NCBI GenBank assembly: GCA_900320055.1
Contig: ONQS01000007.1
Coordinates: 1 to 64,000, forward strand
Source: an uncultured Prevotellaceae bacterium
GTDB lineage: Bacteria; Bacteroidota; Bacteroidia; Bacteroidales; Muribaculaceae
DNA length: 64,000 nt
Direction of reading: 5' to 3'
Shown here: positions 60,827 to 64,000 of the stretch, one piece after another
Layout of the letters: each line of letters opens with the position of its first letter
Position numbering within the stretch: position 1 is the first letter of the stretch
Translations under genes and position numbers: made by a program
Notes under the pieces: model-generated
Databases searched by the model: none
What the model was told of the DNA's origin: nothing
What the model saw: only the letters and a program-made list of their open reading frames with translations

Positions 60827-61516
60827 TTACTCGGCCTTCTTATCGCAGTTGCAGTCGATGATCTTCCAGATGCAGGCTGCAAGGGCGCCGCCAATGAACG
60901 GGCCGACGATGAAGATCCACAGGTTGGCCAGTGCGGTACCACCCTGGAAGATGGCGGGAGCAATGGAGCGAGCGGGGTTCACCGAGGTGCCGGTGTAACG
61001 GATGCAAACCAGGTGCACGAGCACCAGCGACAGACCGATGGCCAGGCCGGCAAAGTTGTTGGTAGCGCCATTGGTCTTGGCTGTTGCACCGAGCACAACA
61101 AGCACAAACACGCAGGTGAAGATGATCTCGGCCAACAGACCGCCCAGGACAGACACGCCCTCCTGCAGGTCGTTAGCGCCCGTGCCATCCATGCCCATCA
61201 CATTGGTGGTGAGCAGGTAGAGCAATGCCGATCCGATAAAGGCACCGATAACCTGGAAGATGATATACATGCCGCAATCCTTGGCGCTCATGCGTCCGCT
61301 CAGGAAGCAACCCAGCGTGATGGCGGGATTGATGTGGCAACCGCTGATGCCGCCGATGGTATAGGCCATGGCAACTACAGCGAGGCCAAAAGCCAATGCC
61401 GTTCCCACAACTGCGGGAATGTTGTTAACGGGGTCACACCCCAGACTAACGGCAACGCCACAGCCCATCAACACGAGGACCATAGTGCCTACCATTTCTG
61501 CTAAATACTTTTTCAT
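60827..61516 (-). CDS. aqpZ: Aquaporin (AqpZ-like)
   Basis: A 229-residue water channel of the MIP family with six membrane segments. Both NPA loops are present: Asn63-Pro64-Ala65 in GCHINPAITL, and SVNPARSIAP near 178. The Arg after the second NPA and the His/Cys-type selectivity positions fit a water-selective channel, not a glycerol facilitator. It has its own promoter, 76 nt before the ATG. Confidence 0.95.
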   Translation of the reverse strand: MKKYLAEMVGTMVLVLMGCGVAVSLGCDPVNNIPAVVGTALAFGLAVVAMAYTIGGISGCHINPAITLGCFLSGRMSAKDCGMYIIFQVIGAFIGSALLYLLTTNVMGMDGTGANDLQEGVSVLGGLLAEIIFTCVFVLVVLGATAKTNGATNNFAGLAIGLSLVLVHLVCIRYTGTSVNPARSIAPAIFQGGTALANLWIFIVGPFIGGALAACIWKIIDCNCDKKAE

Positions 61517-61591
61517 AGTGTAAAGAAAATTATATGGTTAAACAAGTTAGATTCACTCACTAAACAACGACTCAATGTGGTTTAGGAATGG

Positions 61592-61623
61592 CAAACTTAG
61601 CAATTTTTAATGGAAAACACAAG
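61592..61623 (-). promoter_or_regulatory. aqpZ promoter
   Basis: On the minus strand CTTG (61623-61620), a 20-bp spacer and TAAGTTTG (61599-61592). Confidence 0.7.
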
Positions 61624-61643
61624 AATTTCTGATAAAAACTTCT

Positions 61644-61651
61644 TATATTTG
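61644..61651 (+). promoter_or_regulatory. -7 element of the dehydrogenase gene
   Basis: TATATTTG followed by C, 50 nt before the ATG. No clear -33. Confidence 0.5.
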
Positions 61652-61701
61652 CAAATTGATTACACTTGTGAACCCATATATAACTGATAATTTAAGATAA
61701 G

Positions 61702-63015
61702 ATGAATGTTTCGATAGTTGGTACAGGATATGTCGGTCTGGTGAGCGGTACATGCTTTGCCGACCTGGGTGTCAACGTGACCTGTGTGGATCGTGACAGT
61801 CAGAAGATTAACCGCTTGGTCTATGGTGCCATCCCCATCTATGAGCCGGGATTGGACAACATGATCAACCGCAACGTCAACGACAAGCGGCTCACCTTTG
61901 CGAGCGACTACAAGCAGGGATATGTCGACCAGGATTTTGTGTTCTGCGCCATCGACACCACAGCCGATGAAGACGGCTCGACCGATCTGGGTCCCATCCT
62001 CGAGATCGCCAAGGATTTTGGCAACCACATCACGCGATACAGCGTCTTTGTCATCAAGTCGACTGTGCCAGTGGGCACGGCTCAGCACATCCACAAAATC
62101 ATCAGCGAGACGCTGCAGGCCCGTGGAGCCAACATCAAATTTGATGTTGCATCCAACCCCGATTTTCTGACCGAGGGCAACGGCATCAAGGACTTTATGA
62201 AACCCGACCGCATCGTCATCGGTACCGAGACGGCCAGCGCCCGCCAGGCGATGGAGCGTCTGTACCGCACCATCCTGATGCACAACAACCGCAACGTCAT
62301 CTACACCGACACCCGCACGGCCGAGATGATCAAATATGCCGCAACCTCGATGCTCGCCACCCGCGTGAGTTTCATGAACGAGATTGCCAACTTGTGCGAG
62401 ATTGTCGGAGCCGACGTGAATGTGGTGCGCCACGGTGTGGGCACCGATAGCCGCATCGGTCCCAAATACATCTTCCCGGGCTGTGGCTATGGCGGCACGT
62501 TGTTCCCTCAGGACATCAATGACTTGATCAAGATCGGCAACGAGCATAACTTTGACATGGAAATCCTGAAGGCTGTCGAGAATGTCAACACACGGCAGAA
62601 GCGCATCCTGTTCAAGAAACTCAACAATCACTTCAAGGGCGACCTCAAGGGCAAAACCATCGCGCTGTGGGGCCTGAGTTTCAAGCCCGAGACCGACGAT
62701 ATGACCGCTGCTCCTGCTATCGACACCATCAACCTGCTGATGGAGGCTGGCTGCCACGTCCGCGTCTACGACCCTGTGGCCATGAATGCCACCAAGCGCC
62801 GCTGGAGCAATGTGTATTGCGGATTGGACATGTATGATGCCGTCAAGGGTGCCGATGCCGTGATGCTGCTCACGGAGTGGCGCCAGTTCCGCATTCCCGC
62901 CTGGCAGGCCATCAAGAGCCTGATGAACACCCCGCTGGTGATCGACGGCCGCAACGTTTATGACGGCGAGGAACTCGAGGAACTCGGCTTCACCTACTAT
63001 TGCATCGGCCGCTAA
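61702..63015 (+). CDS. UDP-glucose 6-dehydrogenase homologue with altered active site
   Basis: By fold and length (437 residues) this belongs to the UDP-glucose/GDP-mannose dehydrogenase family, which oxidises UDP-glucose to UDP-glucuronate in two NAD-dependent steps. The NAD loop GTGYVGLVSGTCFADLG (7-23) is intact, but the catalytic motif GGSCFPKD reads GGTLFPQD (264-271), so the essential Cys is Leu267 and the Lys is Gln270. The VGTP loop reads AIDTTADEDGS (about 92-102), and NPEFL reads NPDFL (about 153). The rest, including the DSRIGPKY block and a full C-terminal domain, is well kept, with no frameshift. It may be an enzyme with another reaction, a regulatory subunit or a binding protein; it cannot be assumed to make UDP-glucuronate. 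Confidence 0.8.
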   Translation: MNVSIVGTGYVGLVSGTCFADLGVNVTCVDRDSQKINRLVYGAIPIYEPGLDNMINRNVNDKRLTFASDYKQGYVDQDFVFCAIDTTADEDGSTDLGPILEIAKDFGNHITRYSVFVIKSTVPVGTAQHIHKIISETLQARGANIKFDVASNPDFLTEGNGIKDFMKPDRIVIGTETASARQAMERLYRTILMHNNRNVIYTDTRTAEMIKYAATSMLATRVSFMNEIANLCEIVGADVNVVRHGVGTDSRIGPKYIFPGCGYGGTLFPQDINDLIKIGNEHNFDMEILKAVENVNTRQKRILFKKLNNHFKGDLKGKTIALWGLSFKPETDDMTAAPAIDTINLLMEAGCHVRVYDPVAMNATKRRWSNVYCGLDMYDAVKGADAVMLLTEWRQFRIPAWQAIKSLMNTPLVIDGRNVYDGEELEELGFTYYCIGR

Positions 63016-63044
63016 CCCACAACCGGGTCTGAGCGCAGACATAT

Positions 63045-63081
63045 AAAAAACCGCCTGTAAGCATTAAGCAGGCGGTTTTTT
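63045..63081. terminator. Bidirectional terminator after the dehydrogenase gene
   Basis: A 13-bp stem (63045-63057 with 63069-63081) with A-run and T-run ends, between convergent genes. Confidence 0.9.
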
Positions 63082-63103
63082 CTTTTTTGACTTGCTGTCG
63101 TCG

Positions 63104-64000
63104 CTAATATTCGAAACTGGTGTCGATGACCTGGAACTCGGTGCGCCGGTTAATCTGGTCGGCGATTTCCCGATCCTCCTTGCTCAACGTCTTGACATAC
63201 TCCTCGTTGAGCACCACGCCTTCCTCAAACTGCGGATACTGGCTGTTGATGCGCTTGGTCACGGTCTTGGGACGTGTCTTGCCATAGCCAGCGGGCTTGA
63301 GCCGCTCACGCGGAATGCCATTCTCAACCAGATAGTCCACCACACTCTGGGCACGCCTCAGCGAGAGGCCGTTGTTATACTTGTCGCTGCCCACACGGTC
63401 GGTGTGTGATGCCATCTCGATCACAATGTTGGGATGGTCCTTCAAGAGCATCACCATGCTATCGAGTGCCAGTTTGGACTCATCGCGCAGGACGGCTTTG
63501 TCAAAGTCATAGTAGATGTTGTCGATGATCTGTGGCTTGAACATGGCGTTCAGGATAAAGTCCACATTATACTCGGCATCCTCCTCGGCCGAGTCGCTCT
63601 CAAAGGCCTGCTTGGCATTGAGGTAGCCGTCGGCACCAGCCATCATCACATATTTGACACCCCGCTGTAGGTCAAACCTGAACGAACCGTCGGGCTTAGC
63701 GGCAGTCTTCTGATTGCTGCCGTCGTCGCCCACGATACGGATCACGGCATTGGGGACGGGCTCATCGTCCTTATCGACCACATATCCCGAAATCCACACC
63801 TGCAGGTCGGGCTTGATGAAACTGAAGATGTGGTCATAGCCACGGGCATCGCCACGGTTGCTGGAGATGAATCCGCTCTCGCCTGTACCAAATGTGATGC
63901 CAAAGTCATCGCCAGCCGAGTTCATGGGAACGCCCATATTCTCTACCACCCAACGGTCCAGAGAGAACTTATCGTCCTCGTCGCGCGGTTGCAACTTAGC
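63104..64000 (-). CDS. OmpA-family protein (5' end outside the window)
   Basis: The frame stays open to the right edge, so the N terminus is missing; 299 codons are visible. Residues (window numbering from 63994) about 65-125 form a carboxypeptidase-regulatory-like or Ig-like domain (ISGYVVDKDDEPVPNAVIR), and 160-240 the OmpA C-terminal peptidoglycan-binding domain (YYDFDKAVLRDES, SHTDRVGSDKYN, LSLRRAQSVVDYL). A 45-residue tail after this domain is unusual, ending FQVIDTSFEY. Such proteins, often with a WD40-like start, anchor the outer membrane to peptidoglycan and are common in Bacteroidota, including near type IX secretion components. Confidence 0.88.
   Translation of the reverse strand, partial: AKLQPRDEDDKFSLDRWVVENMGVPMNSAGDDFGITFGTGESGFISSNRGDARGYDHIFSFIKPDLQVWISGYVVDKDDEPVPNAVIRIVGDDGSNQKTAAKPDGSFRFDLQRGVKYVMMAGADGYLNAKQAFESDSAEEDAEYNVDFILNAMFKPQIIDNIYYDFDKAVLRDESKLALDSMVMLLKDHPNIVIEMASHTDRVGSDKYNNGLSLRRAQSVVDYLVENGIPRERLKPAGYGKTRPKTVTKRINSQYPQFEEGVVLNEEYVKTLSKEDREIADQINRRTEFQVIDTSFEY

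Follow-up and report, generated by a model that had tools for sequence, protein, structure and literature searches.

Results

An intact UDP-glucose dehydrogenase homolog

The window, which is the whole stretch of 64,000 nt analyzed here (contig ONQS01000007.1, from an uncultured Prevotellaceae bacterium), contains on its plus strand an ORF of 437 codons without internal stops (61702-63015) that encodes a homolog of UDP-glucose dehydrogenase (UGDH). The genes on either side are both on the opposite strand, and were named from sequence reading as aquaporin-like (60827-61516) and OmpA-like (63104-64000). Upstream of the UGDH homolog, TATATTTG at 61644-61651 resembles TAnnTTTG, the Bacteroidetes -7 promoter element. 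Just past the stop codon (63051-63080), visual inspection showed an inverted repeat and, after it, a run of T, which may act as a terminator between this gene and the convergent one. A search of 61400-63200 retrieved no RNA element at the gathering threshold.

The deduced product belongs to the nucleotide-sugar dehydrogenases, scoring 411 bits with TIGR03026 (cut-off 189.8) and containing the three-domain architecture PF03721, PF00984, and PF03720, all above their curated cut-offs. Its best NCBIfam match, nearly full length, is the TuaD-type UGDH model NF047673; at 471.8 bits, against a curated cut-off of 700, the protein falls outside this equivalog, and it lacks the catalytic Cys. Among solved proteins, the nearest in sequence is the Porphyromonas gingivalis UGDH 3gg2 (phmmer E 8.3e-153). 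An AlphaFold model built from 22 sequences (mean pLDDT 90.7, pTM 0.85) superimposes on 3gg2 with a Foldseek TM of 0.95 and an rmsd of 1.5 A, so that the protein is predicted to have the UGDH fold. Besides the fold, both proteins share the domains, the NAD motif, the UDP-sugar residues and the active-site Lys and Asp, whereas NPEFLKEG, KYAAN, and GGSCFPKD from 3gg2 are replaced by NPDFLTEG, KYAAT, and GGTLFPQD in the window protein.

Replaced and retained positions of the active site

We aligned 82 full-length sequences with Leu at the nucleophile position (from here on, the Leu group), from genomes of the same genus and from Bacteroidota assemblies, with 30 canonical sequences from the same genus, family and order. 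Two of the Leu-group sequences have an identical counterpart once the alignment is masked. Twelve loci in which the gene is truncated by the end of a contig or locus were omitted. Sequences obtained by a pattern scan are known by their deposited titles (Muribaculaceae, Prevotellaceae, Porphyromonadaceae, Bacteroidales) and not by genus. The gene and its relevant positions are:

61702..63015, plus strand: Cys-less UGDH paralog, complete ORF of 437 aa plus stop (TIGR03026, three UDPG_MGDP_dh Pfam domains, AlphaFold)
61720..61737, plus strand: GTGYVG (residues 7-12), which holds Tyr10 and the glycine motif for NAD binding, retained in the Leu-group alignment
61951..61962, plus strand: IDTT (residues 84-87) replacing VGTP, in the loop assigned to contact the nicotinamide ribose in the part of PMC4794789 consulted
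62161..62163, plus strand: Asp154 replacing an invariant Glu (Streptococcus pyogenes Glu141, human Glu161); Asp in 82/82, Glu in 30/30 canonical sequences
62332..62334, plus strand: Lys211 (S. pyogenes Lys204, human Lys220), retained in 82/82
62344..62346, plus strand: Thr215 replacing an invariant Asn (S. pyogenes Asn208); Thr in 82/82, Asn in 30/30 canonical sequences
62500..62502, plus strand: Leu267 (TTG) replacing the nucleophile Cys (S. pyogenes Cys260, human Cys276); Leu in 82/82, Cys in 30/30 canonical sequences
62512..62514, plus strand: Asp271 (S. pyogenes Asp264, human Asp280), retained in 82/82 and named as general base in the sections of PMC4794789 and PMC3184952 consulted

An earlier note, made from the window sequence alone, had proposed that the catalytic Cys is replaced by Leu267 in an otherwise intact frame, and this is what we found: GYGGTLFPQD aligns with GYGGSCFPKD from 3gg2 without gaps across the active-site segment, which makes the register of the motif secure and rules out an alignment shift. 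The nucleophilic Cys of the GG-x-C-x-P-K-D motif of UDP-glucose 6-dehydrogenases is absent from all 82 aligned Leu-group sequences. That note had also considered Cys261 as the catalytic residue. Canonical relatives have Cys261 alongside the catalytic Cys (GCGYGGSCFPKD), and the position is not constant in these relatives, being Ile in L049 and Ala in L052; together with the gap-free register, this discards Cys261 as a substitute nucleophile. The departures IDTT and NPDFL, likewise pointed out before, are both real in the window protein. The replacement of Lys by Gln at position 270 is correct for the window (CAG, 62509-62511), although not as a general trait, since 20 of the Leu-group sequences have Lys here and the other 62 have Gln. 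The change of Asn to Thr at position 215 was absent from the earlier note.

In the published alignment of 229 nucleotide-sugar dehydrogenases, 18 residues are invariant according to the text of PMC4794789 available to us; mapped from their motifs, 15 are kept in the window protein and the other three correspond to the Glu141, Asn208, and Cys260 positions. Conservation of the remaining functional positions is high in the Leu group: Glu158, Arg251, Asn296, Lys328, and Arg417 are unchanged in all 82 sequences, as are G7 and G9 of the glycine motif, with G12, Tyr10, and Thr121 unchanged in 81 each and Ser120 in 75. In the IDTT loop, Gly85 is replaced by Asp in 78 sequences and by Glu in four, and Thr86 is unchanged in 74 of the 82; the loop residue discussed as Thr83 in the accessible part of PMC4794789 is kept in the window protein. 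Other fixed differences are Phe256 to Tyr, Ala274 to Asp, and Lys157 to Thr.

Conservation and selection

The exact Leu motif is present in 86 of the 101 genomes of the genus, with the listed matches reading Leu, and in 47 of the 48 high-quality genomes (at least 90% complete and at most 5% contaminated). Among the 15 genomes without the exact motif, G343 reads GGNLFPQD, and G362 and G373 have instead a relative that retains Cys. All six Leu codons are used at position 267 among 79 sequences. The median dN/dS was 0.056 for 36 close Leu sequences and 0.036 for 17 early ones, compared with 0.064 in a set of 13 canonical genes from the genus, values obtained with dS near saturation (medians of 0.87, 1.45, and 1.72) and, for the canonical set, with a finite dS in 67 of 78 pairs.

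A sequencing error, a pseudogene or an alignment shift behind Leu267 is hardly credible. The motif was at first sight known from one assembly only, and one of the Cys-retaining relatives has an internal stop; set against this are its occurrence across the genus, which excludes an error at the Leu motif, the synonymous variation of the Leu codon, the dN/dS of 0.04-0.06, the gap-free alignment with 3gg2 and the universal presence of Lys211 and Asp271. The sequence data thus strongly support the earlier view that this is not decay, and that the Leu-group gene is under selection that keeps it intact.

A pattern scan of the genome collection retrieved 85 stretches, of which five are gammaproteobacterial forms with a change of Cys to Phe; the other 75 titled matches are from Bacteroidota assemblies, many from ruminants. 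A search of the family (297 genomes) yielded 24 matches from other genera past E 1e-170, and the 13 that were read are all canonical.

Origin of the Leu group

In a quick tree of 114 sequences, 79 Leu sequences were on one side of a branch with an SH-aLRT of 100. A more careful tree, with the active-site columns masked, grouped the Leu group and the two Cys-retaining relatives in a clade (support 100/100) nested within the UGDHs of the family. The form exemplified by GGTLFPQD belongs to a conserved clade, as the earlier note had suggested examining, with Leu267, Thr215, and Asp154 present in every full-length Leu-group sequence aligned. The two relatives (G373:C27 and G362:C140) both show NPDF, KYAST, and GGTCFPKD; G362:C140 (L176) contains one in-frame TAA. 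The simplest order of loss is likely Asn and Glu first and Cys last, as judged from these extant sequences. The Leu group excluding these two relatives has a support of 78/53, for which reason the appearance of Asp and Thr before Leu is likely and not proven.

The genes flanking the Leu form differ between subclades. Many loci of the close subclade have the aquaporin-like/OmpA-like gene order, whereas other loci contain glpA- and glpB-like flavoprotein genes and an rluD-like gene, all these names coming from sequence reading. No pathway could be deduced from the neighbors in the Leu-type contexts compared, whose flanking genes are partly annotated.

Other UGDH types in the same genomes

A second copy with an intact Cys, which the earlier note had proposed to look for, was found in the same genome (G000:C37:50140-51456). 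Its product reads GGSCFPKD and is 52% identical to the window protein, and the gene sits behind another read from sequence as encoding a Wzc-like kinase. Of the 101 genomes of the genus, 46 have the TuaD-type Cys motif, among them 22 of the 48 of high quality, and 35 (20 of high quality) have an E. coli-type Ugd, called at E ≤ 1e-60 and in no case above the curated cut-off of its family; the active site read in two of these 35 genomes was GGYCLPKD (L185 and L191).

Of the 47 high-quality genomes that have the Leu motif, 20 also contain the TuaD type, 19 the E. coli type and one has both, so that another UGDH type is kept in 40; neither was found in the remaining seven, which may stem from incomplete assemblies. 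The one other high-quality genome has the TuaD type without the Leu form. Since the Leu form is maintained whether the other UGDH is of one type, of the other or missing, these patterns point to a distinct job. They also disfavor an obligate partnership with the TuaD-type paralog, which by motif is absent from 26 of the 47 genomes.

Parallel losses in gammaproteobacteria

In the family of an Oleispira assembly, 30 of 44 genomes contain a homolog at E ≤ 1e-100, and 30 of the 31 matches were aligned (L208-L237). Cys is kept in 19 of them and replaced in 11 by Phe, Arg, Gln, His, Gly or Ala; Asn is changed to Thr or Ser in 14, and some members also lack the Lys, the Glu or the NAD motif. A tree of 45 sequences with the active-site columns masked, leaving out eleven others (seven distant paralogs, L201-L207, and four duplicates), implied six changes between Cys and non-Cys and six between Asn and non-Asn, counting gains and losses. 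Judging from these alignments and trees, the loss of Cys in the gammaproteobacterial homologs is separate from that of the Leu group.

The usual order at these loci is etfBA, the UGDH-like gene and gspE, with a gspE homolog adjoining the gene in 28 of the 30 loci and an etfA homolog in 27; L228 and L229, both canonical Cys forms, have neither. The most eroded forms (L231-L237) have Arg at the Lys204 position and no STVPVGT motif, and L234-L237 have Cys (GGVCLPGD) but no longer Glu141 or the complete glycine motif for NAD. A weaker paralog with the E. coli-type motif GGYCLPKD is present in four of the five genomes with the Phe form, whereas none was found at E ≤ 1e-10 in the fifth, from Leucothrix. 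The graded sequence variation of the gene in L208-L237 gives it the appearance of a pseudoenzyme evolving in nature, in a neighborhood of type II secretion genes. The replacements of Cys and of Asn in part of these homologs are shared with the Leu group; in contrast, the Lys, Glu and NAD motif lost in some of the homologs are kept in the Leu group.

Discussion

Our results show a UGDH-like gene that selection keeps intact in spite of the loss of the nucleophile Cys and two of its neighbors, which indicates that its product probably has a different job. A duplicated UGDH lineage from one Bacteroidales genus has thus probably changed function, as far as can be read from comparative analyses. The fold and the family were already known; no natural clade of Cys-less UGDHs was described among the literature matches listed, in a search covering mostly papers outside subscription journals. 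Both alternatives of the earlier proposal, a changed reaction and a non-catalytic role, fit the sequence evidence.

In the standard account, UGDH oxidizes its substrate twice without releasing the aldehyde (PMC10538703, as far as its consulted portion goes). For the human enzyme, the excerpts of PMC3184952 describe that the Cys276Ala mutant fails to complete the reaction from UDP-glucose yet oxidizes added aldehyde, that a covalent adduct accumulates in Cys276Ser and that a Glu161 mutant holds the thiohemiacetal, in agreement with the title of 3khu, a Glu161Gln thiohemiacetal complex. The same excerpts assign Lys220 to the second oxidation and the hydrolysis, and the activation of water to Asp280; in their updated mechanism the first oxidation leads directly to the Cys adduct, with no aldehyde. 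For the S. pyogenes enzyme, the available text of PMC4794789 considers Asp264 the base that activates water and starts the first oxidation, to which Asn208 is also assigned with Lys204, and attributes thioester hydrolysis to Tyr10 and positioning to Glu141. The human mutants are changed at positions also changed in the window protein; however, they are single laboratory replacements, whereas in the Leu group the changes occur together in nature, are fixed throughout a clade and include Asn to Thr as well.

With a probability of about 0.38, we favor that the product is a paralog limited to reversible two-electron or redox-neutral chemistry at C6 of a UDP-hexose, a putative reaction on a putative substrate. 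This lineage retains the predicted fold, the residues of the NAD and UDP-sugar sites, with their presumed ligands, and the active-site Lys211 and Asp271, and has lost the nucleophile and its neighbors Glu and Asn in every full-length member aligned; Leu267 would occupy the place of the thiol. UDP-glucuronate would no longer be made through the normal four-electron thioester route, and the enzyme may only carry out a reversible exchange between alcohol and aldehyde or, alternatively, a redox-neutral reaction via a transient aldehyde. This proposal agrees with the fixation of Leu267, Thr215, and Asp154 while Lys211, Asp271, and the binding residues stay, with a median dN/dS of 0.056 and 0.036 against 0.064 in the canonical genes, with the maintenance of the Leu motif in nearly all high-quality genomes beside varying other UGDH types, and with the presence of Asp and Thr already in the two Cys-retaining relatives. 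It is also consistent with the loss of both the nucleophile and the Glu, whose mutation stalls the covalent stage (PMC3184952, as excerpted, and the title of 3khu), and with the conservation of the equivalent of Asp264, starting the first oxidation in the text of PMC4794789 at hand. Against it, Asn208 of the first oxidation is lost and Tyr10 of the hydrolysis is kept, with Glu141 having a positioning role (PMC4794789, same portion); the later-step Lys220 is retained; an aldehyde-free mechanism would leave a Cys-less enzyme with no first step; and Cys276Ala shows aldehyde oxidation and not aldehyde release (the last three from the excerpts of PMC3184952). Additionally, Thr86, contacting the nicotinamide ribose, varies in 8 of the 82 sequences, the gammaproteobacterial relatives with similar changes include some that have lost NAD and Lys residues, and the flanks read show no aldehyde-using partner. 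The published residue roles and the aldehyde-free mechanism weaken in particular the reading of a clean half reaction. A natural half-reaction dehydrogenase, from which the covalent second oxidation was removed stepwise while the first was kept, and with a UDP-hexose 6-aldehyde made or used as a free metabolite, is therefore doubtful; no enzyme of this kind was found in the literature, among the matches listed.

A non-catalytic pseudoenzyme, binding UDP-sugar, NAD(H) or both as a sensor, scaffold or allosteric partner without turnover, is nearly as probable on the same comparisons. Three of the 18 family-invariant residues are lost, the NAD loop is altered to IDTT, and if the mechanism involves no free aldehyde, an enzyme lacking Cys would have no reaction left to catalyze (PMC3184952, excerpts). 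The gammaproteobacterial orthologs, most of them at the locus between etfBA and gspE, have been maintained although some have eroded at Cys, Asn, Lys, and the NAD motif, showing that UGDH-like genes can persist without their usual active site; unlike this eroding set, however, the Leu group preserves Lys211, Asp271, Glu158, and the UDP-sugar residues in all 82 sequences. Moreover, a role dependent on another UGDH as partner is unlikely in the seven high-quality genomes where neither other UGDH was found. These seven genomes, the retention of Lys, Asp, and Tyr10, and the oxidation of aldehyde by Cys276Ala could instead favor the synthesis of UDP-glucuronate independently of Cys, through oxidation of the hydrated aldehyde. 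This is improbable, since that same mutant cannot complete the reaction from UDP-glucose (both results from the excerpts of PMC3184952), Glu and Asn are also gone, and another UGDH type accompanies the Leu motif in 40 of 47 high-quality genomes. It is quite improbable as well that the protein uses NAD to act on a different nucleotide sugar or at a different position: although the fixed changes Gly85 to Asp/Glu, Phe256 to Tyr, Ala274 to Asp, and Lys157 to Thr would suit it, the UDP-sugar residues of the family are retained and the flanking genes read hint at no pathway.

That gammaproteobacterial homologs lost Cys separately suggests that UGDHs can be diverted to other functions repeatedly. Annotation by homology would credit the Leu-group genes with UDP-glucuronate synthesis, which calls for caution. 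Whether a free aldehyde forms at all in the UGDH reaction is disputed. A conserved natural form without thiol, Glu and Asn, together with its Cys-keeping relatives, offers a direct test of the role of each residue, and lets one ask whether the first oxidation can proceed without Cys.
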